NCBI RefSeq assembly: GCF_004319545.1
Contig: NZ_CP036313.1
Coordinates: 3,846,501-3,910,500, forward strand
Length of the DNA: 64,000 nt
DNA from: Desulfobacter hydrogenophilus
GTDB lineage: Bacteria; Desulfobacterota; Desulfobacteria; Desulfobacterales; Desulfobacteraceae
Direction: 5' to 3'
In this document: one piece after another, positions 19,683 through 31,938 of the stretch
Position numbering within the stretch: position 1 is the first letter of the stretch
Layout of the letters: the number at the start of each line of letters is the position of its first letter
Translations under genes and position numbers: made by a program
Notes under the pieces: model-generated
What the model saw: the letters and a program-made list of their open reading frames with translations, nothing else
The model's database searches: none
Told to the model about the DNA's origin: nothing

Positions 19683-19825
19683 CTCGATGATCCAGTTTTT
19701 GTTAATTTGACCAACTTCGGCGGTGGAAAAAATTTTTACTCCTCAAAATATATTGTATATTCCTCCGGTTTAAAATTGTTTCCGCCTTGAATTTGAACAA
19801 ATTCCCTAAAAACTGGATTATCGAG
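19683..19825. mobile_element. 143-bp MITE derived from the IS at the right edge
   Basis: The terminal inverted repeats CTCGATGATCCAGTTTTT (left) and AAAAACTGGATTATCGAG (right) match with one difference. A perfect 6-bp direct repeat, TTTACA, flanks the element (19677-19682 and 19826-19831). The left end is identical to the end of the IS element at 62724. The interior is too short to encode anything, so this is a non-autonomous derivative. Confidence 0.85.
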
Positions 19826-19917
19826 TTTACACTTGCCCAGGGGATTGTTATTTTAATTTCTCTAACGGTTAAAGATAACTAAATTTTGAAATGGCGTAAA
19901 GGTAAATCAAAACACAG

Positions 19918-20490
19918 ATGAATGCAGACAAAGGACGATCTTCCGAAATGCAAGATAACCCGGCAGGCACCCTTACCGTGGACCAGGTGGCCGAAAATCT
20001 TTCAGCCTTTGCCATTGACAGGGCTGATATTAAATCGCTGTTAGGCGCAATCCCTGAAGGGCATCCCATAGACCTGAACTGTCTGGAATATGAACTGGCC
20101 ATTCTAAAAATTTTGAGTGTGGGGTGGGGGCTTGCCTTTTTCATGCCGGTAACAGATGTGAACAAGACACCTTTGACCCAGGCATTCTGGGAACAGATTC
20201 GGGAGATTTCCAACAATGTGTCAACCTTGACGGAAACCACCACAGGCACCCGCGTTGATTATTTTGGCATACTCAAGGAACGCCTGGATACCTTTGTGAA
20301 GCAGATGCAGGAAAACCAGACCGAAGATGCTGATCCCACCAGCATTATGGGCCCTGTATTTGCCGATGCCTGCGGGGCTCCGGATGATCCCATGGTTATC
20401 CTTGCCGGAACCAAGATGTTTGCCCTGACCCTGGGGGCGGTCAAAGAGTACCTGGCCGCCGTGAAAATAAAAGATATCACCATTCATTGA
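19918..20490 (+). CDS. Hypothetical protein upstream of the rhomboid gene
   Basis: This protein of about 190 residues contains one mildly hydrophobic stretch (ILKILSVGWGLAFFMPV) and no motif I recognise. It looks soluble, with a helical C terminus (LAGTKMFALTLGAVKEYLAAVKI). Neither 19918 nor the later ATG at 19948 has a clear ribosome-binding site, so the start is uncertain. It ends 28 bp before the rhomboid gene and may be the first gene of the operon that runs to oleC. Confidence 0.6.
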   Translation: MNADKGRSSEMQDNPAGTLTVDQVAENLSAFAIDRADIKSLLGAIPEGHPIDLNCLEYELAILKILSVGWGLAFFMPVTDVNKTPLTQAFWEQIREISNNVSTLTETTTGTRVDYFGILKERLDTFVKQMQENQTEDADPTSIMGPVFADACGAPDDPMVILAGTKMFALTLGAVKEYLAAVKIKDITIH

Positions 20491-20518
20491 CTCCCTAAAA
20501 CAGGTCTCTTTTTTCGTT

Positions 20519-21229
20519 ATGATAAATAACCGGATAAAATTTACGATACAGGCCGTGATCTGGATTAACGTGGTCATGTATGCCGTGTCCCTGCTGTTCT
20601 CCCGGGGGGTTCATTTTACCCTGAATCCTTTAAATGCCCTGGCACCGTCCAGCGACGCCCTGATCTTTCTTGGTGCCTCCGGAACCATGGCCTTGGCCTA
20701 TACCAATGACTGGAGCAGCATTTTCACCGCAAACTGGCTGCACGGCAGTCTGTTGCACATCCTTTTCAACATGCTGGCGCTTCGAACCCTTGTTCCGCTC
20801 ACGGCAAAGGAGTTTGGGGTATACCGGATGCTGTCCATTTATATCCTTTCCGGTGCAGGTGGTTTTTTTCTTTCCTGTCTGGGCGGTGTGCCTTTGACCA
20901 TTGGCGCCTCTGCCGGTCTTTGCGGGCTGATTGGTGCCTTGTTTTATTTTGGCTGGTCCCGGGGGGGGAGCTGGGGAAAGATGGTGTTTGATCAGACCAA
21001 ATCCTGGATTTTCAGCCTGGTGCTTATTGGACTGATCCTGCCGAATATCAACAATTGGGGCCATGGTGGCGGGTTTGCCGCAGGCTTTATCCTGGCATTT
21101 CTCTTTGGGTATGAGGAGCGCCGCAGATCAGGGAACATTGATATCCTGATTTGTGCGGGAATGTCCTTGTTCACCTGTCTTCTTCTATTCCGTTCAATTT
21201 TTCAAGGCATGGCAGCGATAGTAAAATAA
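20519..21229 (+). CDS. Rhomboid-family intramembrane serine protease
   Basis: This 236-residue, roughly six-TM protein keeps the rhomboid catalytic dyad: Ser in GASAGLCGLIGA and His in NNWGHGGGFAAGF. The preceding HILFNMLALRTL matches the conserved H-x-x-x-N helix. It would cleave membrane-protein substrates within the bilayer. It ends 67 bp before the PfaC-like gene. A direct role in lipid or olefin synthesis is not evident. Confidence 0.92.
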   Translation: MINNRIKFTIQAVIWINVVMYAVSLLFSRGVHFTLNPLNALAPSSDALIFLGASGTMALAYTNDWSSIFTANWLHGSLLHILFNMLALRTLVPLTAKEFGVYRMLSIYILSGAGGFFLSCLGGVPLTIGASAGLCGLIGALFYFGWSRGGSWGKMVFDQTKSWIFSLVLIGLILPNINNWGHGGGFAAGFILAFLFGYEERRRSGNIDILICAGMSLFTCLLLFRSIFQGMAAIVK

Positions 21230-21296
21230 GGGTATTTTACACAAATTTTACAAAGCCTGCTTGCAATCTTTTCCCGGGTCAACTATATGGGGCTCC

Positions 21297-24200
21297 ATGA
21301 GTTTGAAACGCGTAGATATTGCTGTGGTCGGCATGTCCGGTATTTTTCCCGGCGCCTGTGATACCCAACAGTTCATTGCCAACGTCATGGCGAAAAAATC
21401 CAGTGTAATCCCGGTACCCCAAGACCGGTGGGGAGTGCCGCCTGACATCATGGTGGACAACCGCGCCGGCGCGCCTTTACCGGACCGTGCCTGCAGCCGG
21501 TTTGCAGGACTGATTTCCAAATCCGTGTTCAATCCTGCCGATTTAGACTTTTGCGGGGCGGATAAGGCCGGGCATGGTCTTGATAATGATTTTTTCCACG
21601 CCCTGGACCCGGTACACCATTTAACCCTTGCCGCCGGCATTGATTTGATTACCCACGCTGGGCTTTCCAAAGAAAGCCGGGGGCGCACAGGGGTTGTGCT
21701 GGCTGCCATTGCCCTGCCCACGCCGGGAGCATCACGGCTGACCCATAATCTTTTTTTGACACCCAACCCCGCAATGCCCTCCCGGCAACAGGCCTGGGGC
21801 GCCGGTATGCTGTCGGCACCTGCATCTATTCTGGCAAGGGTCTTGGGTTTAAACGGCGGCAGTTTTACCCTGGATGCCGCCTGTGCCTCGTCTTTGTTTT
21901 CCATAAAGCTTGCCTGCGAACAATTGCTGTCAGGAAAGGCGGATGCCATGGTGGCCGGCGGGGTTTCCCGGCCTCAGTCCCTTTACACCCAGGTGGGATT
22001 TACCCAGCTCCAGGCCCTGTCACCCACGGGTCGGTGCGCCCCCTTTGATCGGGATGCCAATGGTCTGGTGGTGGGGGAGGGTGCAGGAATTGTTCTGCTC
22101 AAACGCCTGGATGATGCCCTGGCCTGCCGAGATACCATCCACGCTGTGATCAAAGGATGGGGCGTGAGCAACGATATTGAAGGAAACCTGGTGGCCCCGG
22201 CCAGTGAAGGCCAGGTCCGAGCCATGAATAGTGCCTTTGATATGGCCGGTTGGGCCTTTGGTGATATCCAGTACATGGAGTGCCACGGCTCCGGGACCCC
22301 CAAGGGGGATCAGGTGGAAGTCCACAGTATCATGCAGATGCTTGAAAAATATCGGTGCATGGACACGGCCTTGTCCATTGGGTCGGTGAAGTCCAACATC
22401 GGCCATATGCTGACCGGTGCCGGTGCGGCCGGGTTCATCAAAACGATTATGGCCATGAACCAGGGGCTGCTGCCACCATCCAACAATTTCAATGCCCTGC
22501 CCGATGACTCGCCTTTTAAGGATACCGGTGTCAGGGTTCAGGATACGCCCGCTGCCTGGGCACCTGCTGGTGACGGTCAGCCTTTGCGGGCGGCAGTGTC
22601 TGCCTTTGGGTTTGGCGGCATCAATGCCCAGATCCTTGTGGAATCTTTTAAGGCCGAATCTCGCCGTTATGCGGTGGGTTTTGCGCCAGCCCCAGCCGAA
22701 GAATGCGTTCCCTGCGCCATTGTGGGCATGGGCCTGATATCGGGGGGCGCTGACTGCCTTGGGGATTTTTCCCGGCTTATTTTTGGGGAGAAAACGCCTG
22801 TTGGCCGCTCCGGAGAAGCCAGGTGGCGCAGAGCCGATCATCTACCCCCTGAAATTCGCAGGGCTTTAACCCTGTTCATGGATGAGCTGAGTATTGATCT
22901 TAAAGATTTCAATATCCCCCCCAATCAGATGAACCAGATTCTGCCCCAGCATCTGATTATGCTTAAATCTGCCATGGCGGCTCTGGCAGATGCCGGTATA
23001 TCTTCAAAACCTGATGCGTCACAACCGCTCCGGGTAAACATGGGCTGTGCCGTGGGTATTGAATTTGATTTCGGGGCAACGGATTACCACTTAAGATGGC
23101 AGATCCAGGGACAGGAAAAAGATGTCTCTAAAGAGTTGCTGGACACCATCGGGCCGTCATTAAATTTTGGTTCAACACTGGGTGCCCTTGGGGGTATCGT
23201 GGCGTCCCGCCTAGCCCGGGCATTTAAACTGGGTGGCCCCTGCTTTACCCTGTCTGCGGATGAAGCCTCGGGGCAGACGGCCATTGATATTGCCGTTAAA
23301 TCCCTGTCCGCAGGGGAGACCGATACCTTTTTATGTGCGGCTGTGGATCTTGCCGCCGACATTAGAAGCTTTACCCGGAATCTGGTCCTGACCGGAGCAG
23401 ACCCCATGGCCCTGCCTTCGGAAGGCGCTGTGGCCCTGGTGCTCAAACCCCTGGAAGCCGCGCAGAAGGACAATGACCGGATTTATGCCGTGGTCAATGG
23501 TGTGGGACGAGCCGGGGGGGCTGCTTTTGCCGGGGAAATCGGTGATCAGGCCCAAGTCTCACGGTCAACGGTTGTTCAAAAGTCCTTACAAATGGCCCTG
23601 GATCATGCCGGTATGGACGTCAATGATATTGGGCTTGGTGCCGTGACGCACAGTGCGTCTCATTTTCTGGGGGCAGGGGAGGTGTCTGGACTTGAATTCA
23701 ACGCCTTTCCGGTTTTCTGCCCGTCTGCTTTGTCAGGCCATACCGGGGCAGCTGCAGGCCTTTTTACCGTTACGGCTGCCGCATTGTGTCTTTATACCCA
23801 AAAGTTTCCAGGTCCTTTGTCCAATGCCCCCGGCATTCCCCAAACCGCTGTTGCAGGCTGCCTGACCCGGGATGGTATTGCAGGACACGTTGTATTGTCA
23901 GGCCACCAGAATGCAGGGCAGGGTGGGGACACCTTGACCGTTTCGGTGACCCGGGAAAAAAATGGGCATTCACCCACCTGCATAAAAATTCCTGTTACCC
24001 GTCCGCCTTTTCCACGGGGTCTGATTGCCACAGAAGCTTTTGATTGCTGCCCTGGACCGCTCGAAGCCCCACTTTCTATCCCCTGTGACACACTTCCAGG
24101 ACTGCTGGCCCATACCCAGGCGGTGACGGCCAGGGCCCATGAGCGTTTCCTCGAATTATCCGCCCAGAATACCCAGGCTATGGCCGAACAGCTTGCTGTC

Positions 24201-25493
24201 ATTGCCGGCGCAGGGTCAACGGGGTGGCATGCATCAACCGGTCTGGAACCGGTCTGCCCGCTCCAGGAAATTCCTAAGATTCCTGAGGTATTCATGGACC
24301 GAAACCAATGCCTTGAATTTGCCGTGGGAAAAGCCGGAAACGTGCTGGGGCCGGATTTCGATATCATTGACACCTACCCGGTCCGGGTGCGGTTGCCGAA
24401 TGAACCGTTGATGCTGGTGGACCGGATTGTTTCCGTGCATGGAGAAAAACTGTCCTTAACTTCAGGGAAAGTGATTACCCAGCATGATGTGCATGAAAAT
24501 GCCTGGTACCTGGACGGCGGCAAAGCCCCGGTTTCCATCTCCATTGAAGCGGGCCAGGCGGATCTCTTTCTTTGCTCCTGGTTGGGCATAGACCATGTGG
24601 TTAAAGGCAAACGCAAATACCGGCTGCTTGATGCCAAGGTGACGTTCCACCGCAGCCTGCCCGTGCCTGGTGAAACCATTGAATACCACATTGAGATTGA
24701 CCGTTTTTTAAGGCAGGGGGATATTTATCTTTTCTTTTTTCATTATCAAGGATACATCAATCAGCTGCCCTTTATCTCCATGCGCGATGGGTGCGCAGGC
24801 TTTTTCACCGAACAGGAGGTTGAAAATTCCGGCGGCATTATTCTGAAAAATGAAGACAAGGAAATGAATGTACAGGGGGCGCCACCAGCCTGGTTTGCAC
24901 CGGTGAAGCGGCTAAGCCTGAATGATGAACAGGTGGATGCCCTTCGCACAGGGGATCTTGAAACAGCATTCGGCGCAGATTTTCAAGGAAAGCGCGCCGG
25001 AAAAAATCAATGGCTGCCCGGCGGTCCCATGCGCCTGATCCACCGGGTTCTCGACCTGGATCCCACCGGCGGTCGGTTTGGCATGGGCCGGATTATTGCC
25101 CAGGCGGATATCCATCCCGATGACTGGTTTTTGACCTGCCATTTTATTGATGACATGGTGATGCCGGGCACCCTGATGTATGAGTGTTGTGCACATACCC
25201 TGCGGGTTTTTGTCCAGCGCATGGGCTGGGTTCTGCCGGATGACGGCATCTGCTATGATGTGCTGGAAAAAAACGAAAGTGATTTGAAGTGCCGGGGGCC
25301 TGTGACCCGCGCCACAAAAAAAACCCTTTACGACATTGAAATAAAATCAATCGGATATGAACCCCAGCCTTTTGTGACGGCGGATGCCCATATGTTTTCA
25401 GATGATCTTGAAATTGTGTTTTACAAGGATATGGGGATAAAACTTACTGGGTTGACCCGCCAGGATCTTGAGGCGTACTGGAGGAAAAAATGA
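21297..25493 (+). CDS. PfaC-like polyketide/PUFA synthase subunit (KS-CLF-DH-DH)
   Basis: The domain order of this 1398-residue protein is that of PfaC from bacterial PUFA synthases. The ketosynthase (1-~450) has DAACASS (Cys196), ECHGSGTPKGD (His330) and KSNIGHMLTGAGAAG (His370). The second KS-like domain (~470-880) has Glu656 where the Cys should be (SADEASG), marking it as a chain-length factor. Two FabA-like hotdog dehydratases follow (from ~1000 to the end), with histidines in DVHENAWYL (1066) and DIHPDDWF (1273), the latter followed by VMPGTLMYE. No acyltransferase, ACP, KR or ER is present, so it must work with carriers encoded elsewhere. I chose the ATG at 21297 over the in-frame TTG at 21261 because TGGGG precedes it. 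It overlaps oleA by 4 bp, so its product probably feeds the Ole enzymes. Confidence 0.88.
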   Translation: MSLKRVDIAVVGMSGIFPGACDTQQFIANVMAKKSSVIPVPQDRWGVPPDIMVDNRAGAPLPDRACSRFAGLISKSVFNPADLDFCGADKAGHGLDNDFFHALDPVHHLTLAAGIDLITHAGLSKESRGRTGVVLAAIALPTPGASRLTHNLFLTPNPAMPSRQQAWGAGMLSAPASILARVLGLNGGSFTLDAACASSLFSIKLACEQLLSGKADAMVAGGVSRPQSLYTQVGFTQLQALSPTGRCAPFDRDANGLVVGEGAGIVLLKRLDDALACRDTIHAVIKGWGVSNDIEGNLVAPASEGQVRAMNSAFDMAGWAFGDIQYMECHGSGTPKGDQVEVHSIMQMLEKYRCMDTALSIGSVKSNIGHMLTGAGAAGFIKTIMAMNQGLLPPSNNFNALPDDSPFKDTGVRVQDTPAAWAPAGDGQPLRAAVSAFGFGGINAQILVESFKAESRRYAVGFAPAPAEECVPCAIVGMGLISGGADCLGDFSRLIFGEKTPVGRSGEARWRRADHLPPEIRRALTLFMDELSIDLKDFNIPPNQMNQILPQHLIMLKSAMAALADAGISSKPDASQPLRVNMGCAVGIEFDFGATDYHLRWQIQGQEKDVSKELLDTIGPSLNFGSTLGALGGIVASRLARAFKLGGPCFTLSADEASGQTAIDIAVKSLSAGETDTFLCAAVDLAADIRSFTRNLVLTGADPMALPSEGAVALVLKPLEAAQKDNDRIYAVVNGVGRAGGAAFAGEIGDQAQVSRSTVVQKSLQMALDHAGMDVNDIGLGAVTHSASHFLGAGEVSGLEFNAFPVFCPSALSGHTGAAAGLFTVTAAALCLYTQKFPGPLSNAPGIPQTAVAGCLTRDGIAGHVVLSGHQNAGQGGDTLTVSVTREKNGHSPTCIKIPVTRPPFPRGLIATEAFDCCPGPLEAPLSIPCDTLPGLLAHTQAVTARAHERFLELSAQNTQAMAEQLAVIAGAGSTGWHASTGLEPVCPLQEIPKIPEVFMDRNQCLEFAVGKAGNVLGPDFDIIDTYPVRVRLPNEPLMLVDRIVSVHGEKLSLTSGKVITQHDVHENAWYLDGGKAPVSISIEAGQADLFLCSWLGIDHVVKGKRKYRLLDAKVTFHRSLPVPGETIEYHIEIDRFLRQGDIYLFFFHYQGYINQLPFISMRDGCAGFFTEQEVENSGGIILKNEDKEMNVQGAPPAWFAPVKRLSLNDEQVDALRTGDLETAFGADFQGKRAGKNQWLPGGPMRLIHRVLDLDPTGGRFGMGRIIAQADIHPDDWFLTCHFIDDMVMPGTLMYECCAHTLRVFVQRMGWVLPDDGICYDVLEKNESDLKCRGPVTRATKKTLYDIEIKSIGYEPQPFVTADAHMFSDDLEIVFYKDMGIKLTGLTRQDLEAYWRKK

Positions 25494-26542
25494 AGTACGA
25501 CAAGGTGTTTATTGAATCCTTTGGATATGAGCTGGCACCCCACATCGTGACCAGCCGGGAAATTGATGAAAAACTCACTCCTTTTTTTGAGACTGTTGGG
25601 TTTGTGCCCGGCCAGCTGGAGGCATTGACCGGTATCCGGGAACGCCGATACTGGGATAAGGAGCATACCCTGGCCGAACATGCGGCCGTGGCAGGTCAAC
25701 GGGCTCTGGATGAAGCAGATATTAATCCCAAAGAACTGGGGGCCCTTTGTTTTTGCGGGGTGTGCCAGGACGGATTTGAACCGGCTACATCCTGTGCGGT
25801 GGCAGACAAAATCGGTGTGGGGCCAAGAACCCATGTCTATGACGTAAAATCTGCCTGCCTTGGCATGATCACGGGCATGGTTCATGTGGCCAATGAGATC
25901 CAGCTCGGGCATATTAAGGCGGGACTCGTGGTCTCCTGCGAATCGGCCCGGCAGATTGTTGACGCCACCATTGAAGAGATAAACACCCACAAAAGCATTG
26001 ACTTTTATAGAAGGGCTGTGGCCACCATGACCGGGGGCTCCGGAGCCGCGGCAATTCTGCTCACCGACGGGACCCTGGGCAAATCTTCGACGCCGCGTCA
26101 TAAAATCAAAGGCGGGGTGGTGAACAATACCATCCGTCATTGGGATCTTTGTTACTGGGGATTTGAACACAAGGGCATGCCCACAGATTCAAGGGTGATT
26201 ATGCGCACCGATGCCCAGAAAGTGCTTGATCACGGCACGGAACTGGCCATGGAAACCTATGACTTATTTCGCAACGAGTTGGCGTTGCCTGAAAATAAGC
26301 CGGATAAATTTGTTGCCCATCAGGTCGGGGAGGGCCATCATAACAAATTTTATACGGCCATGAAAATTGACCGAAAAAAGGATTTTATCACCTTTCCTTT
26401 CCTGGGAAATGTGGGGTCCGTGTCCCTGCCGATTTCAGCGGCCATTGCCGATGAACGCGGATTTCTTGTGCCCGGCGATTTTGTGGCCTTTTTAGGGGTG
26501 GGGTCCGGACTTAACTGCTATTTTCTGGGGGTTGAATGGTAA
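25490..26542 (+). CDS. oleA: OleA, acyl-CoA head-to-head condensing thiolase
   Basis: This 350-residue thiolase-fold enzyme would condense two fatty acyl-CoAs into a beta-keto acid. The OleA-specific Glu is present in DGFEPATSC (Glu97). The nucleophile is Cys123 (VKSACLGM), with His277 (AHQVG) and Asn307 (GNVGS) completing the site. FabH would instead have a shorter sequence without the EP-A/S-T motif. The start overlaps the PfaC-like gene by 4 bp (ATGA) and the end overlaps oleB by 7 bp, indicating tight translational coupling. Confidence 0.9.
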   Translation: MKYDKVFIESFGYELAPHIVTSREIDEKLTPFFETVGFVPGQLEALTGIRERRYWDKEHTLAEHAAVAGQRALDEADINPKELGALCFCGVCQDGFEPATSCAVADKIGVGPRTHVYDVKSACLGMITGMVHVANEIQLGHIKAGLVVSCESARQIVDATIEEINTHKSIDFYRRAVATMTGGSGAAAILLTDGTLGKSSTPRHKIKGGVVNNTIRHWDLCYWGFEHKGMPTDSRVIMRTDAQKVLDHGTELAMETYDLFRNELALPENKPDKFVAHQVGEGHHNKFYTAMKIDRKKDFITFPFLGNVGSVSLPISAAIADERGFLVPGDFVAFLGVGSGLNCYFLGVEW

Positions 26543-27447
26543 CAAGGACAATAAACGGACAGCTGACTTCCACCGCAGGGTTTGAGGAGCTTTACCCCTT
26601 TGAACCCCATTATGCCGATATTAACGGGCATAAAATGCATTATGTGGATCAGGGCAAGGGCAGGCCTGTGCTTATGGTCCACGGCAACCCCACCTGGTCC
26701 TTTTATTTCCGCCATCTGATCACCGGCCTTTCCGCTGGTTTTAGAACCATTGCCCCGGATCATATCGGGTGTGGTTTTTCAGACAAGCCGTCGGCTAAAA
26801 CGTATGATTACACCTTGGATCAAAGGGTGGCGGACCTGGATGCCCTTGTCAGACGGCTGAATATTAATGAAAAAATATCGCTGATCGTGCATGATTGGGG
26901 CGGAATGATCGGACTTGCCTGGGCCTTGGACAACCTGGACCGGGTGGATAAAATTGTCATCACCAACACATCGGGATTTTTCCTGCCGGCGTCCAAGCGC
27001 TTTCCGACAGCGCTATGGGCCATAAAATATCTTGCCCCCTTTGCTGTACCTGCTGTTTTAGGTGCCAACCTTTTTGCCCGGGGCGCCTTGTATCTTGCCC
27101 CGGAAACCCGGCTGCCCCAATCTGTTAAAAAAGGTCTTGTTGCCCCGTACAATAGTTGGGCAAATCGCATTGCCACCTTAAAATTTGTCCAGGATATACC
27201 GATAACAGCAAACGACAGAAGTTATGCCAGAGTCCAGAAAGTGGATCAGGGGCTTAACGCCCTTAGCCCGGATCAGCTCATGTTTTTATGGGGAACCCGG
27301 GATTTTGTTTTTGATATTCATTTCCTTGAGGAATTTAAAAACAGATTTCCCCGATCCCGTGCCCATGTATTTGAGGATGCCGGCCATTACCTGTTCGAAG
27401 ATAAGCCCGGGCCTACCCTTGAATTGATTCAAAACTTTTTGTCCTGA
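26536..27447 (+). CDS. oleB: OleB, beta-lactone decarboxylase of the haloalkane-dehalogenase fold
   Basis: This 303-residue alpha/beta hydrolase has HGNPTWSFYF (oxyanion region), nucleophile Asp120 in VHDWGGMIG, an acid in GTRDFVFD and His284 in DAGHYLFED. The sequence is haloalkane-dehalogenase-like. Between oleA and oleC it is best read as OleB, which turns the beta-lactone made by OleC into a cis-olefin and CO2. It overlaps the end of oleA by 7 bp. It is intact and a normal length. Confidence 0.88.
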   Translation: MVTRTINGQLTSTAGFEELYPFEPHYADINGHKMHYVDQGKGRPVLMVHGNPTWSFYFRHLITGLSAGFRTIAPDHIGCGFSDKPSAKTYDYTLDQRVADLDALVRRLNINEKISLIVHDWGGMIGLAWALDNLDRVDKIVITNTSGFFLPASKRFPTALWAIKYLAPFAVPAVLGANLFARGALYLAPETRLPQSVKKGLVAPYNSWANRIATLKFVQDIPITANDRSYARVQKVDQGLNALSPDQLMFLWGTRDFVFDIHFLEEFKNRFPRSRAHVFEDAGHYLFEDKPGPTLELIQNFLS

Positions 27448-27500
27448 CATTTTCTTTTGTATTTTGACTTTCAGATTCATGCCGGATAAATTGGGGTGTT

Positions 27501-28175
27501 ATGGGACTATTAAAAAAGAAAAAAAAGGATGAACCCACGGAGCCGGCTGCCGAGGAACAGGTCGGTGACGAGTCCACGTCAGCCAAACCCAAGAAAAAAT
27601 CTTTGTTAAAAAAGCTGATTATTATTCTGCTTAGTCTGGGCATTCTTGGGGGGGGCGGATTCTTTGTGTACACCAAGTTTCTTTCAGGTTCCGGTACCGA
27701 AGACGGTCGGGTTTATCAACCTGTAGCCCTTGCCCATGTCACCCTGCCCCACGAGATGCTCGCCTTTTGTTTCCACCGCATGCCCGGACTTTACGATGCC
27801 CTGGTGGCCTTCAACATAGAAATGGTTTTATTTGATGCTGAAATTGCCCGTATTGATGCCGTGGGCACCAAGTACCCCGATCAAAAAAAGATTACCGACA
27901 GCCAGAAAAAAGTATGGGACAAAGGCATGCAGTCTTTAAAAAAATCCTTTGAAAAATTGGAAAAACCCATTAAAGAAACCTTTGTACTGTTCCAGGTCAA
28001 CCCGACCCAGGGACAGGAAAAAATTGATCAGACTGCTGAACAGATGATCCAGGTCGCCAACCAAGCCCTGGAAAAAGCCCAGGAACTGACAGCGCCGCTA
28101 AAGGACGCCATGCCCAAAGCCCCCGAAGGTATGATCAAAGGAACCCTGTATAAAATAAAAAAGATGTTTTTATGA
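27501..28175 (+). CDS. Small membrane-anchored lysine-rich protein between oleB and oleC
   Basis: This 224-residue protein begins with a lysine-rich cytoplasmic tail (GLLKKKKKDEPTE...), followed by one membrane segment (LIIILLSLGILGGGGFFVY, about residues 36-56). A mostly helical exported domain follows, with many Lys, Glu and Gln residues. I recognise no family. Its stop overlaps the oleC start (ATGA), so it is translationally coupled to the hydrocarbon genes. Standard ole clusters do not contain such a protein. It could anchor the Ole assembly at the membrane or handle the product; both are inferences. Confidence 0.75.
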   Translation: MGLLKKKKKDEPTEPAAEEQVGDESTSAKPKKKSLLKKLIIILLSLGILGGGGFFVYTKFLSGSGTEDGRVYQPVALAHVTLPHEMLAFCFHRMPGLYDALVAFNIEMVLFDAEIARIDAVGTKYPDQKKITDSQKKVWDKGMQSLKKSFEKLEKPIKETFVLFQVNPTQGQEKIDQTAEQMIQVANQALEKAQELTAPLKDAMPKAPEGMIKGTLYKIKKMFL

Positions 28176-29824
28176 CACGCTATACAAATATTGCCCAAAG
28201 CCTGAAACAATCCGCTGACATCCATCCATTCAAACGTGCCGTGGTCTACCCTGCCTCACGGGATCGCTCCGGGCGGGTTCTTTACAGCCAGCTGACTTTT
28301 TGTCAGCTTGACCAGCAGTCCGATTGCCTTGCCGCAGGTCTTGACAGCATCGGCATTGGCCGGGGGACCCGCACCATTTTGATGGTGACCCCTGGCATGG
28401 ATTTTTTTCTTACGGTGTTTGCCATGTTCAAGGTCGGGGCAGTGCCCGTGGTGGTGGATCCGGGCATGGGTATTGACCGGATGCTGCAATGCCTTTCCCA
28501 AAGCCGACCCAAGGCCTTTATCGGCATTGAAAAGGCCCATGTGCTTCGAACCCTGCGCCCCGGATATTTTAAAACGGTGAAGCGATGGGTGACCGTGGGC
28601 AGAAAATGGTTCTGGGGCGGGCACACCCTGAACCAGCTGATGAACAGGTTCCCGGGCACACCTTTCAAACAGGTGCAGACCACGGAGAATGAAATAGCGG
28701 CCATTGTATTTACCACCGGCTCCACAGGTCCTGCCAAGGGCGTCATATACACCCATGGGAATTTTGAGGCCCAGATTCGTCAAATTCAGTCCCATTTTCA
28801 GATTGCGCCCGATGAGGTGGACCTGCCCACTTTTCCGCTCTTTGCTTTGTTTGATCCTGCCCTGGGCATGACTGCCGTGATCCCGGATATGGACCCCACC
28901 AAACCGGCCCTGGTGAATCCGGTAAAAATTATCGAGGCCATTGAAAATCATGGTGTGACCAATATGTTTGCATCTCCGGCCCTGTTGAACCGGGTGGGAA
29001 AATACGGCCGGGAAAATGAGATCAAACTGCCGTCATTGCGCCGGGTGGTTTCCGCAGGCGCCCCTGTCAGTCCGGCCAATATTGAACAGTTTTCATCCAT
29101 GCTGTCCGATAATATCCAGATTCACACACCCTACGGAGCCACGGAAGCGGTTCCTATCATATCCATCGGTTCCCATGAGATCCTGTCGGAAACCAGAAAA
29201 CTTTCGGAGCAGGGCTTTGGCATGTGCGTGGGCCGGCCCATCGCAGATACAAAAGTGAAATTGATCGAGATTTCCGACGAGCCCATCACCCAGATCCAAT
29301 ATGTTCAGGAGGTGCCTGAAAATCAGGTGGGGGAAATAACGGTAAAGGCAGATCTTGTAACCGAGCAATATTTTAACGATACCAATGCTGATCTTCTGGC
29401 CAAAATACCGGATACGGACGGCAAAGTATGGCACAGGATGGGGGATCTGGGCTGGAAGGATTCAAAGGGTAGAATCTGGTTTTGCGGCAGAAAGGCCCAC
29501 CGGATTGAAACCGGAAAAGAGACTTTGTTTACTATCCCCGTGGAAGCCATATTCAATAATCATGAAAAGGTTTACCGCAGTGCGCTCACAGGTGTCGGGC
29601 CCAAAAACCGTCAGATGCCCGTGGTGTTTGTGGAGCCTTTTGAGAAAATATCCGATGAAAAACAATTTATTCAGGAACTGTCTGATCTGGCCGGCAAAAA
29701 TCCTTTGACCGCCGGTATTGAATACATTTTCATTGAGTACAAATTTCCTGTGGATATCCGGCACAACTCCAAAATTTTCAGGGAAAAACTGGCGATCAAG
29801 GCCCGGGAGTTAATTACAGGATAA
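28172..29824 (+). CDS. oleC: OleC, beta-lactone synthetase (ANL superfamily)
   Basis: This 550-residue AMP-forming enzyme has VFTTGSTGPAKGV (P-loop), TPYGATEAVP, GDLGWKDSKGRIWFCGRKAH and a C-terminal Lys in DIRHNSKIFREKL. Its length and its place after oleA and oleB identify OleC, which converts a beta-hydroxy acid and ATP into a beta-lactone. It overlaps the preceding gene by 4 bp. In the usual pathway OleD makes the hydroxy acid, and no oleD follows here. Confidence 0.9.
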   Translation: MTRYTNIAQSLKQSADIHPFKRAVVYPASRDRSGRVLYSQLTFCQLDQQSDCLAAGLDSIGIGRGTRTILMVTPGMDFFLTVFAMFKVGAVPVVVDPGMGIDRMLQCLSQSRPKAFIGIEKAHVLRTLRPGYFKTVKRWVTVGRKWFWGGHTLNQLMNRFPGTPFKQVQTTENEIAAIVFTTGSTGPAKGVIYTHGNFEAQIRQIQSHFQIAPDEVDLPTFPLFALFDPALGMTAVIPDMDPTKPALVNPVKIIEAIENHGVTNMFASPALLNRVGKYGRENEIKLPSLRRVVSAGAPVSPANIEQFSSMLSDNIQIHTPYGATEAVPIISIGSHEILSETRKLSEQGFGMCVGRPIADTKVKLIEISDEPITQIQYVQEVPENQVGEITVKADLVTEQYFNDTNADLLAKIPDTDGKVWHRMGDLGWKDSKGRIWFCGRKAHRIETGKETLFTIPVEAIFNNHEKVYRSALTGVGPKNRQMPVVFVEPFEKISDEKQFIQELSDLAGKNPLTAGIEYIFIEYKFPVDIRHNSKIFREKLAIKARELITG

Positions 29825-29842
29825 GATACCGGTTATTAGAAG

Positions 29843-30307
29843 ATGAGATACAGATACATCAACTCCCAAATCGGTCCTTTGATGCTGGCCGGCCACACAA
29901 CGCTTGAACTTATCCGTTTTCCGGTCAAAGGTAAAAAAAAGGCGCCTGAAATAGGTTGGGTAGAGGACAACACCAGATTTCCCGATGCCGTATTCCAACT
30001 GGCGCAATATTTTGAAGGCCGGTTAAAACAATTTGACCTTGATCTTCAGCCCATAGGAACGGATTTCCAGAAACAGGTCTGGCAGGCGCTTTTAACTATT
30101 CCTTACGGGACCACGGTGACCTATGGTGAGATCGCCAAACGAATTCATAACCCCAAAGCCTTCAGAGCCGTGGGCCTTGCCAACAGGTGTAACCCCATCC
30201 CCATCATTATTCCCTGCCATCGTGTGATCGGCAAAAATGGTAAATTAACCGGATTTGCCGGCGGCCTTGGCATCAAACAAGCTCTTCTGGATCTGGAAAA
30301 ATCCTGA
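29843..30307 (+). CDS. ogt: Methylated-DNA-protein-cysteine methyltransferase (Ogt)
   Basis: This 154-residue protein carries the active-site motif IPCHRVIGKNG with the acceptor Cys. The upstream helix-turn-helix block reads IPYGTTVTYGEIAKRI and NRCNPIPI. It transfers alkyl groups from O6-alkylguanine to itself. It lies 18 bp after oleC and may be transcribed with it by readthrough, but no functional link is apparent. Confidence 0.93.
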   Translation: MRYRYINSQIGPLMLAGHTTLELIRFPVKGKKKAPEIGWVEDNTRFPDAVFQLAQYFEGRLKQFDLDLQPIGTDFQKQVWQALLTIPYGTTVTYGEIAKRIHNPKAFRAVGLANRCNPIPIIIPCHRVIGKNGKLTGFAGGLGIKQALLDLEKS

Positions 30308-30361
30308 AATCAAAAGGCCTATAAAAGGACATTTCCGGACAGATTTTTTTTAATGTCTATT

Positions 30362-30649
30362 TCAGGACAAAGGACCAAGCGCATCAACGGCTGCCATGCA
30401 CACGGCCACGGATGATTGGGGATGTTCGGCTGAAAATGCCGTATCTTCTTTTAAAAATGTTGCACGCCAATTGGTTTCGGTCATGCTTTTGGGGCACAGA
30501 TCTTTTAACTGAAAGGTAAATCCTTTGGTTTCTAGAATCCCGGCAAGTTCCATGGCTGCATTAATATTATAGACAGCCTGGTTTGGAACGGACTCACCGA
30601 GAAGCTGTTTTAGTTGTTCTTCTATATTTTCAACTGCAGATTCGGACAT
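30362..30649 (-). CDS. Small hypothetical protein
   Basis: A 95-residue acidic frame on the minus strand starts MSESAVENIEEQLKQLLGE. The C-terminal pattern W-R-A-T-F...S-V-A-V-C-M-A-A-V-D-A-L resembles small proteins annotated as phage ABA-sandwich domains, but the match is weak. It is convergent with ogt. A full ~163-bp MITE lies 38 bp upstream of its start. Confidence 0.5.
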   Translation of the reverse strand: MSESAVENIEEQLKQLLGESVPNQAVYNINAAMELAGILETKGFTFQLKDLCPKSMTETNWRATFLKEDTAFSAEHPQSSVAVCMAAVDALGPLS

Positions 30650-30687
30650 TATATTCTCCCATACGACGGTGGTTTACGTTTTTCATA

Positions 30688-30850
30688 AGGACCGCAGATT
30701 AAATAAGTTGGGCAGAAATAACGCCGAATTTTGGTTCATCTACAAGGCGCATTAAAGGTTGAATAGCAGGCCCTATTGGGCCTTTGATGCAACGAAGTCG
30801 ATGGGCCAAAAGGCAAACTATTTCGTTCAAGTTATTTAATCTGCGGTCCT
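30688..30850. mobile_element. ~163-bp near-palindromic MITE, copy A
   Basis: The element has perfect 19-bp terminal inverted repeats, AGGACCGCAGATTAAATAA and its complement. The whole length is loosely self-complementary, with a central AGGCCC-TATT-GGGCCT-type hairpin. A second copy at 49844-50005 agrees over nearly all positions. There is no coding capacity and no matching transposase in this window. Confidence 0.82.
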
Positions 30851-31101
30851 AAGGATGCAGCATCATCCATTGCTCAACTGGTTTATAGATTGTACGCCTA
30901 ATCCGGGGGTGGTGAAAAGGAATTTCTGGTTTTAGAATGGGAATTGACATATTCAGAATAAGTCAAAATAGCCAGACACGGTGTATTGCCGATTAGAATA
31001 AACTTACCGTGGTTTTTTTGACTTGCCTGGAAAAACTTCAGCATTTATAGTATTTATTTATTGTTTTAATTGCATTTTCTAATAAAAAGTAAGGAGAAAA
31101 A
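30851..31101. other. Upstream region of pstS
   Basis: This is AT-rich non-coding sequence between the MITE and pstS. I see no Pho box that I can defend. An AAGGAGA ribosome-binding site lies just before the pstS start. Confidence 0.5.
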
Positions 31102-31938
31102 ATGAAACAGGTATTCAAACTGTTCCCGTGTTTTATAGTATTGTCCATAATTGCGTTTACCGCAGGCATTGTATGTGCGTCCGAGCTTGACGCATTCAAG
31201 GGTGAAAAGGGGGTGTTGCGCATCGCCGGGGGCACGGCCCACATCCCTGTCATGAAAGAGGTGGCCAAGCGAATTATGAAAATGAATTCTGATATCCAGA
31301 TTACCATTGCCGGCGGCGGATCCGGTGCCGGGATTAAACAAGTGGGAGAGGGCCTGGTGGACATCGGCAACTCCGGTCGTAAACCCACGGATGAAGAAAT
31401 TTCTAAATATAATCTTTCCATGTATAAATGGGCCATTGACGGTGTGGGCACGGTGGTCCACCCGTCCAATCCGGTCAAGGCCCTTTCCGGCGAACAGCTC
31501 AAAGGTATTTATGCCGGAAAAATCGTAAACTGGAATGAACTTGGCGGTGAAGACCGGCCCATCAACATTTATACAAGGGACAATGCTTCCGGTACCCGTG
31601 ATGTATTCTGGAAAAAAGCCCTGGGCAAAGGGGATATTTCCGAGAAAGCCAATTTTGTTGCTTCCAATGGTGCCATGAAGGCGGCCGTCACCAATAATCC
31701 CTATGCCATTGGATATGTTTCCGTGGGGTACATGGATGAAACGGTTGCACCGATTGCCCTGGACGGGGTTATTCCTACTCTGAAAACAGTTCAGTCCGGC
31801 GAATACATGGTTGCCAGAGGCCTTTTCAGCAATACCAAAGGCGAATATACAGGGCTTGCCAAAAAGCTGATTACCTACCTGCTCAGTCCCGAAGGCCAAA
31901 AAATTGTTTCTGACATGGGATTCATTCCTGTTAACTAA
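31102..31938 (+). CDS. pstS: PstS, periplasmic phosphate-binding protein
   Basis: This 278-residue protein has an N-terminal signal peptide (hydrophobic residues 3-22, ending near CAS). It carries the phosphate-binding signatures TIAGGGSGAGIK and TRDNASGTRDVF, and EKANFVASNGAM. The ATG follows AAGGAGA. It is the first gene of pstSCAB and overlaps pstC by one base. No phoU or regulator pair is seen after pstB. Confidence 0.95.
   Translation: MKQVFKLFPCFIVLSIIAFTAGIVCASELDAFKGEKGVLRIAGGTAHIPVMKEVAKRIMKMNSDIQITIAGGGSGAGIKQVGEGLVDIGNSGRKPTDEEISKYNLSMYKWAIDGVGTVVHPSNPVKALSGEQLKGIYAGKIVNWNELGGEDRPINIYTRDNASGTRDVFWKKALGKGDISEKANFVASNGAMKAAVTNNPYAIGYVSVGYMDETVAPIALDGVIPTLKTVQSGEYMVARGLFSNTKGEYTGLAKKLITYLLSPEGQKIVSDMGFIPVN

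Follow-up and report, generated by a model that had tools for sequence, protein, structure and literature searches.

A PfaC-like synthase gene joined to oleABC in Desulfobacter hydrogenophilus: a probable rearranged form of a PUFA-synthase-to-olefin pathway

Here we describe a 64,000-nucleotide stretch of the genome of Desulfobacter hydrogenophilus (assembly GCF_004319545.1, contig NZ_CP036313.1, positions 3,846,501 to 3,910,500; hereafter the window), in which a gene for part of a polyunsaturated fatty acid (PUFA) synthase heads a run of genes for head-to-head olefin synthesis. The run lies head to tail on the plus strand between positions 21297 and 29824, and comprises a PfaC-like synthase with ketosynthase (KS), chain length factor (CLF) and two dehydratase (DH) domains, oleA, oleB, a gene for a small membrane protein, and oleC. 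The features, with domain labels taken from Pfam and NCBIfam model matches on the window proteins, are as follows.

21297..25493, plus strand: PfaC-like synthase, KS-CLF-(no acyltransferase, AT)-DH1-DH2, 1398 aa (Pfam; homologues)
21315..22490, plus strand: KS unit (Pfam PF00109 and PF02801; best solved match chain 6riw)
22674..23996, plus strand: CLF unit, limits approximate (second ketoacyl-synt stretch; alignment to 6riw)
24393..24740, plus strand: DH1 hot-dog domain (PF07977, 23.5 bits)
25014..25418, plus strand: DH2, FabA-like dehydratase (PF07977, 105.7 bits; aligned to FabA chains)
25490..26542, plus strand: oleA, head-to-head Claisen condensing thiolase, 350 aa (NF006720, 412 bits, cut-off 285)
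26536..27447, plus strand: oleB, alpha/beta hydrolase, 303 aa, beta-lactone decarboxylase by position and family
27501..28175, plus strand: small membrane protein, 224 aa, between oleB and oleC
28172..29824, plus strand: oleC, olefin beta-lactone synthetase, 550 aa (NF006754, 723 bits, cut-off 478)

The PfaC gene overlaps oleA by 4 bp, oleA overlaps oleB by 7 bp, and the gene for the small membrane protein overlaps oleC by 4 bp; the sole gap inside the run is the 53 bp between oleB and the small membrane protein. The open reading frames and domain models thus bear out a preliminary description of this DNA, both in the order of the genes with their 4 bp PfaC/oleA overlap and in the joining of a PUFA-synthase part to olefin genes in one gene run. 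At the 42 readable named loci of relatives, PfaC and oleA overlap by 4 bp in 25 cases and by 1 bp in 3, with a gap in the remaining 14, and this recurrence argues that the overlap is more than chance.

The PfaC-like protein has the expected parts of this PUFA (Pfa) synthase subunit. Its KS keeps the active-site Cys (LDAACASS) and two His residues, all invariant in a seven-row alignment (A1), while in the CLF the KS motif AACASS is replaced by SADEASG and the Cys is absent. A DH pair follows, of which DH2 keeps the FabA-type His and a Glu at the acid position (CHF...PGTLMYE). Pfam gave no AT match in the window PfaC. In place of the longer insert of relatives, which gives weak AT matches, this protein has about 70 aa, and the earlier claim that AT is missing stands to that extent. 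Full-length homologues in the genus include ten at 85-90% identity and two more at 60%; the nearest named relatives, Desulfobacter latus and D. vibrioformis, have a PfaC that is 87% identical.

OleA aligns over residues 3-350 to chain 3row, which we take to be OleA, with Cys, Glu, His and Asn, the presumed catalytic residues, in register. An OleB homologue is found in all 41 named loci that hold PfaC and OleC. The small membrane protein has a Lys-rich N-terminus and, by eye, one hydrophobic segment, and it matched no Pfam or NCBIfam model. Its homologues are 35-79% identical to the window copy (alignment A3), and they occur in 16 of the 24 named loci that lack a second DH pair behind PfaC and in none of the 17 that have one. 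It is a possible new component of the Ole complex. The idea that the whole locus is the remnant of a decaying cluster was rejected, because many relatives preserve the reading frames, the 4 bp overlap and the residues of KS, DH2 and OleA.

What of the steps that the gene run does not encode? The preliminary description listed oleD and the acyl carrier protein (ACP), ketoreductase (KR) and enoyl reductase (ER) functions as missing, which is correct for the operon and incorrect for the genome (5.16 Mb in 3 contigs, rated 100% complete, contamination 4.97%). A single-copy OleD homologue (one at E 1e-40; 330 aa, C1:189706-190698) lies more than 1.4 Mb from the operon, and it scores best against the two models for OleD, with 380 and 374 bits. 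PfaD, the ER, is encoded at about C1:3717531-3719201 (614 bits against a cut-off of 449), and PfaA stands beside it as two open reading frames, KS-MAT-ACP-ACP (1368 aa) and KR-PSDH-FabA-FabA (1087 aa). The KS, MAT, tandem ACPs and KR of a PUFA-synthase PfaA are thus all found genome-wide, here with two ACPs and in two frames, so that ACP, KR, ER and malonyl transfer are encoded after all. A PfaB-type AT was not found in the genome, where a separate PfaB was not searched for with a model of its own. With most of the parts absent from the operon present elsewhere, the operon is probably part of a rearranged version of a known pathway.

The pfaD/pfaA locus ends about 149 kb upstream of the PfaC gene, and this distance could suggest that the PfaC-like protein uses discrete type II fatty-acid synthesis enzymes and carriers, without PfaA or PfaD. 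Such borrowing of carriers from fatty-acid synthesis had been proposed in the preliminary description, and within the genus pfaDA adjoins the operon in only three of the genomes seen. In those three congeners (D. latus, L110; G017; G018), however, the order is PfaC-oleA-oleB-small protein-oleC-pfaD-pfaA, with 0.55-0.65 kb from oleC to pfaD, and in other families pfaA lies in one run with the operon. Moreover, the present genome has PfaD and a PfaA with MAT, two ACPs, KR and DHs, and shows neither a discrete FabD nor a canonical FabZ at cut-off (no dedicated models were run for FabH, FabF and AcpP). We consider type II partners for PfaC very improbable indeed.

The gene order is conserved well beyond this strain. 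OleA was detected alongside PfaC and OleC in 36 of 41 named loci, and the pfaC-ole junction recurs across the family and the order; a linkage peculiar to this strain, the outcome that the preliminary description named as refuting its reading, was accordingly rejected. One locus inside the order (L185) has pfaD-pfaA-pfaBC-oleA-oleB-oleC-oleD in one run. Outside the order, five of six stretches (L226, L228-L231) have pfaA-pfaBC-oleA-B-C-D in one run and the sixth (L227) shows only oleA. In three further stretches (L234-L236), oleA or oleA-B-C is present, either as far as the contig reaches or together with a weak OleD. Where the named loci carry a second DH pair behind PfaC, OleD directly follows oleC in 14 of 17, and one of the other three ends inside oleC; where they lack that pair, the count is 0 of 24, which fits the absence of oleD from the window operon. 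As far as sequence can tell, the gene order in relatives points to one pathway.

Co-occurrence was counted as well. Of 98 relatives, 83 have an OleA match at E 1e-80 or better and 86 at 1e-40, with an OleD homologue in 89 at 1e-40, and PfaD over cut-off in 88. Sixty-four of these genomes are at least 95% complete; 59 of them have OleA and OleD, none has OleA without OleD, 3 have OleD without OleA, and 2 have neither. For OleA and PfaC in the same 64 genomes, 58 have both, one has each alone, and 4 have neither. The Fisher values, 0.005 for OleA/OleD and 3.9e-5 for OleA/PfaC, are only indicative because the genomes are related. The genomes with OleD and no OleA are G010, G011 and G063. G011 is a 610-contig assembly in which pieces of PfaC lie at the ends of contigs, whereas the other two look like real exceptions.

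These counts bear on the nature of the end product. The preliminary description, taking the pathway to lack OleD, suggested, as its alternative, a ketone or a beta-lactone in place of an olefin, and oleD is indeed absent from the operon. In addition, E. coli carrying OleA and the Pfa genes in the absence of the other Ole enzymes is reported to make a 31:8 ketone (PMC6463001). Against this, the genome has its one OleD homologue (albeit under cut-off), a homologue is present in 89 of the 98 relatives at E 1e-40 or better, and oleB is kept in the operon, unlike in the oleACD clusters credited with beta-lactones, which are described as having no oleB (PMC7064751). It is quite improbable that the pathway stops at a ketone or beta-lactone.

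The window form differs from that of other families in the placement of its domains. Many relatives outside the family have a fused pfaBC (KS-CLF-AT-DH x4) ahead of oleA-B-C-D. In relatives scanned outside the family, PfaC is often about 2350 aa. Two such proteins (L073, L075) have KS-CLF-AT-DH x4, with an AT match that is weak and under the Pfam cut-off, and another (L052) has DH x4 and no AT match. A phylum-wide search of 296 genomes detected the PfaC-type DH in 22 (E 1e-60 or better), and wider stretches were examined for 12 of those 22 plus G075 and G079. The second DH pair is on PfaBC in 13 of these 14 stretches and on PfaA in one (G075). In the window's family, by contrast, it is on PfaA in all 12 stretches that reach that part, a count that leaves out L190 and L192 (which reach only PfaD) and L197 and L201 (partial or of another type).

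How did the second pair come to lie on PfaA? A maximum-likelihood tree of 57 DH pairs, rooted at midpoint and built without the second-pair segments of L075, L132, L147 and L167 (each with a stop codon in the aligned segment), splits first from second pairs with support of 100/100. The family's PfaA pairs form one group (100/100) placed among the second PfaBC pairs of other families, though support is lower (ultrafast bootstrap 87-95) at the forks that separate this group from the remaining second pairs. A copying of DH1-DH2 of PfaC to give DH3-DH4 of PfaA was rejected, because the tree groups the PfaA pair with second pairs of other families. The simplest reading of these sequences is that the second DH pair moved from PfaBC to PfaA. 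G075 is intermediate: its second pair is on PfaA, its PfaC is 1460 aa with no AT match, and oleD still follows oleC. Loss of the AT may have happened on more than one occasion, since some genera of the family retain an AT-matching insert (L055, 23.6 bits; L059, 30.7; L066, 18.3; L069, 37.2), of which only that of L069 exceeds the cut-off of 32.7.

Taken together, these results make it rather likely that the operon encodes the chain-building and head-to-head coupling part of a dedicated PUFA-synthase-to-olefin pathway, derived from the known pfa-ole pathway. In the proposed mechanism, the MAT of PfaA would load malonyl units onto the PfaA ACPs, the ketosynthases of PfaA and PfaC would elongate the chain together with the CLF, and KR, the DH domains and PfaD would set the double bonds to give a polyunsaturated acyl chain. 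Two such chains would then be taken up by OleA, whose translation is probably coupled to that of PfaC, possibly by unloading them straight from the carrier, a step made conceivable because no PfaB-type AT was found. OleD would reduce the condensed product, OleC would close the beta-lactone and OleB would remove CO2, so that the predicted end product is a long odd-carbon polyunsaturated alkene (C31:9 or similar) destined for the membrane. As a guess, the Ole complex may be tethered by the small membrane protein. Relative to the form in other families, the AT would have been lost, the second DH pair transferred from PfaC to PfaA, oleD moved out of the operon, and pfaDA placed about 149 kb off.

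Several observations weigh against such a dedicated pathway. Three stretches (L232, L233, L238) have PfaBC with no oleA, oleB or oleC detected, and OleA is undetected in 5 of the 17 named loci with a second DH pair (L174-L177, L184). G010 (99% complete) and G063 (98%) hold an OleD homologue although they have neither OleA nor this type of PfaC, so that a different role for OleD is conceivable. Some of the assignments also fall short of their models: the OleD homologue is under the OleD cut-off of 580, the best piece of PfaA reaches 836 bits where the omega-3 PfaA model has a cut-off of 1010, OleC scores 598 and 596 bits against NF045785 and NF045786, below their cut-offs of 850 and 900, and OleB matched no specific model, its best matches being haloalkane dehalogenases, all below cut-off. 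Finally, the DH1 motif, WYLDGGKAPVSISIEAGQ, has no His at the position where other DH domains have one, and the same holds in those relatives whose motif was found.

Two of these cases can be described further. In L174-L177 and L184, from Desulfosarcina and its relatives, oleB, oleC and oleD come after PfaBC, and no OleA was detected in between; the OleA of these genomes may lie elsewhere, have diverged or have been replaced. The congener G010, in which OleA at E 1e-80 and this PfaC were not found and an OleD homologue is present, carries two tandem open reading frames (782 and 796 aa) that both combine AT-like with PfaD-like parts (L201, G010:C1:50000-66000).

How does this pathway relate to the synthesis of ordinary fatty acids in the same cells? 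In the host genome the FabA/FabZ-type Pfam model matched four sites: two in PfaC, one in PfaA, and one in an ApeI-like 139-aa protein near a multi-KS cluster. No canonical FabZ was over cut-off, and there was no discrete FabD, the FabD model matching only PfaA and a megasynthase, both under cut-off; this model matched in 10 of 14 control genomes, 9 over cut-off. For these negatives, FabH, FabF, AcpP, MaoC-type dehydratases and FabD in the rest of the family were not searched with models of their own. Family genomes with FabZ over cut-off number 3 of 59, as against 30 of 39 from other families; at 95% completeness or better the figures are 3 of 39 and 24 of 25, with G075 the sole exception among the other families. 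The multi-KS cluster (L198-L200, C1 2388000-2441000) is perhaps aryl-polyene-like; it holds several KS proteins, the ApeI-like dehydratase, a thioesterase, an AMP ligase, B12-binding radical SAM proteins and a DegV/Dak2-radical SAM fusion.

The megasynthase is a candidate core fatty-acid synthase. It is a protein of 3918 aa (L093:3955-15711, minus strand; C1 about 329954-341710) with ER-type, three KS-type, AT, four ACP, KR and PKS-type DH stretches, and a 239-aa phosphopantetheinyl transferase (PPTase), possibly the PfaE-type enzyme of the Pfa synthase, directly follows it (L093:3235-3954, minus strand). Its N-terminal 690 aa match at E 1e-20 in 50 of 59 family genomes, including 37 of the 39 near-complete ones, and in 8 of 39 others. 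Seven of these eight (G062, G066, G067, G072, G078, G082, G084) also have FabZ, so the megasynthase alone does not go with FabZ loss.

This pattern raises the question of whether the Pfa enzymes serve mainly to make phospholipid or core fatty-acid chains, the ole junction diverting a minor share or being incidental. FabZ was not over cut-off in 36 of the 39 near-complete family genomes, and no discrete FabD was found here. Pfa genes are reported to rescue the loss of fabD in E. coli, which the authors credit to the PfaA MAT domain, and fabD is said to be dispensable in Photobacterium profundum as long as pfaA is intact (PMC8174602). Furthermore, Desulfobacterium autotrophicum is described as having no fabA or fabZ homologues, and a pfa-like cluster was suggested as its core synthase (Shulse and Allen, PMC3098273); the FabZ/FabD pattern found here makes a case for PUFA-synthase-related core synthesis of that kind. 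PUFA-synthase-type enzymes may also serve core fatty-acid synthesis in this family, to judge from the genes. On the other hand, the megasynthase with its PPTase, the N-terminal part of which is found in 37 of 39 near-complete family genomes, is a better candidate for core synthesis, and the PfaC-oleA overlap and the co-occurrence with OleA favour a dedicated link between the Pfa and Ole proteins. We judge it unlikely that the Pfa enzymes work mainly for phospholipids or core fatty acids and that the ole junction is secondary or incidental.

A broader scheme would join these observations, and we offer it as a tentative possibility that is itself on the unlikely side. Type II fatty-acid synthesis would have been dismantled in the Desulfobacteraceae, and two PUFA-synthase-type systems would stand in its place, the megasynthase of roughly 3900 aa making ordinary chains and the Pfa synthase making hydrocarbon precursors. 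The move of DH3-DH4 to PfaA would free a self-sufficient PfaA/PfaD, leaving PfaC as a hydrocarbon-specific subunit tied to OleA, and OleA would unload the ACP directly after the loss of the AT.

The operon is preceded, in the same direction, by two genes that sit directly upstream, and is closely followed by a third.

19918..20490, plus strand: 190-aa open reading frame, no Pfam or NCBIfam match, an upstream neighbour in many Desulfobacteraceae loci
20519..21229, plus strand: rhomboid-family membrane protein (Pfam Rhomboid, 85.6 bits), upstream neighbour
29843..30307, plus strand: ogt, methylated-DNA methyltransferase, 18 bp downstream of oleC and a neighbour in some congeners

Of the 65 named loci that include the N-terminus of PfaC, 23 have a rhomboid gene no more than 500 bp upstream of PfaC. 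A scan of positions 19700-31300 for promoters and terminators placed neither end of the operon, with 16 terminator-like sites against 17.2 expected and 22 promoter-like sites against 12.3 expected.

If the dedicated pathway is real, it would bring PUFA-synthase-fed hydrocarbon synthesis to a widespread family of sulfate-reducing marine bacteria, in which these lipids could belong to the membrane and also be a source of hydrocarbons in sediments. With the AT lost, a direct question arises: can OleA unload a PUFA synthase alone? The moved DH domains, for their part, reveal which portions of such a synthase are able to switch partners.

Links between pfa and ole genes have been described in several other systems, and the joining of the two sets is thus less unusual than the preliminary description supposed. 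In Shewanella, Pfa-derived acyl chains are reported to feed OleA, and in E. coli lacking FadD, OleA is also reported to accept the products of Pfa (PMC6463001). The pfa and ole operons of Photobacterium profundum SS9 are described as lying side by side (PMC4882568, PMC6463001), and strain SS9R is listed as making no such hydrocarbon (PMC6463001). Geobacter bemidjiensis is reported to have pfaD, A, B, C, oleA, B, C, D and pfaE in tandem and to make C31:9 (PMC4882568). Type I pfa-like clusters were proposed to feed ole genes (Shulse and Allen 2011, PMC3098273), and the same survey lists Types C, K and S in sulfate reducers, with a fused pfaBC in Type C (Desulfatibacillum alkenivorans) and a configuration called similar to Type I in Type K (Desulfococcus oleovorans). 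A Desulfobacteraceae-related oleC has been reported from anoxic water (PMC10176705). Searches of an open-access library, which lacks most subscription papers, listed no title on the rearranged Desulfobacter form, a weak sign that it is unpublished.

One close likeness is to Geobacter bemidjiensis, which by its published description has the same kinds of enzymes with pfa and ole in one run, Type I having a fused pfaBC. Compared with that description, the window PfaC has no AT, the second DH pair is on PfaA, PfaA is in two open reading frames, oleD is unlinked, and a small protein lies between oleB and oleC. Types C and K share with the window form their occurrence in sulfate reducers; they carry the AT and all DH domains on pfaBC, whereas the window form is reduced and rearranged. 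One locus, L178, from a metagenome-assembled genome named Desulfosudis oleivorans, which we take to be the current name of Desulfococcus oleovorans, has pfaD-pfaA-pfaBC with a second DH pair, and no ole gene was seen before the contig stops about 2.7 kb past pfaBC. Shewanella and Photobacterium differ from the window in having separate pfa genes and ole as an operon of its own (next to pfa in P. profundum SS9). The oleABCD systems of Xanthomonas, Micrococcus and others that have no PUFA synthase have the OleA, OleB, OleC and OleD chemistry in common with the window, but their substrates come from ordinary fatty-acid synthesis, and the PfaC partner is absent there.

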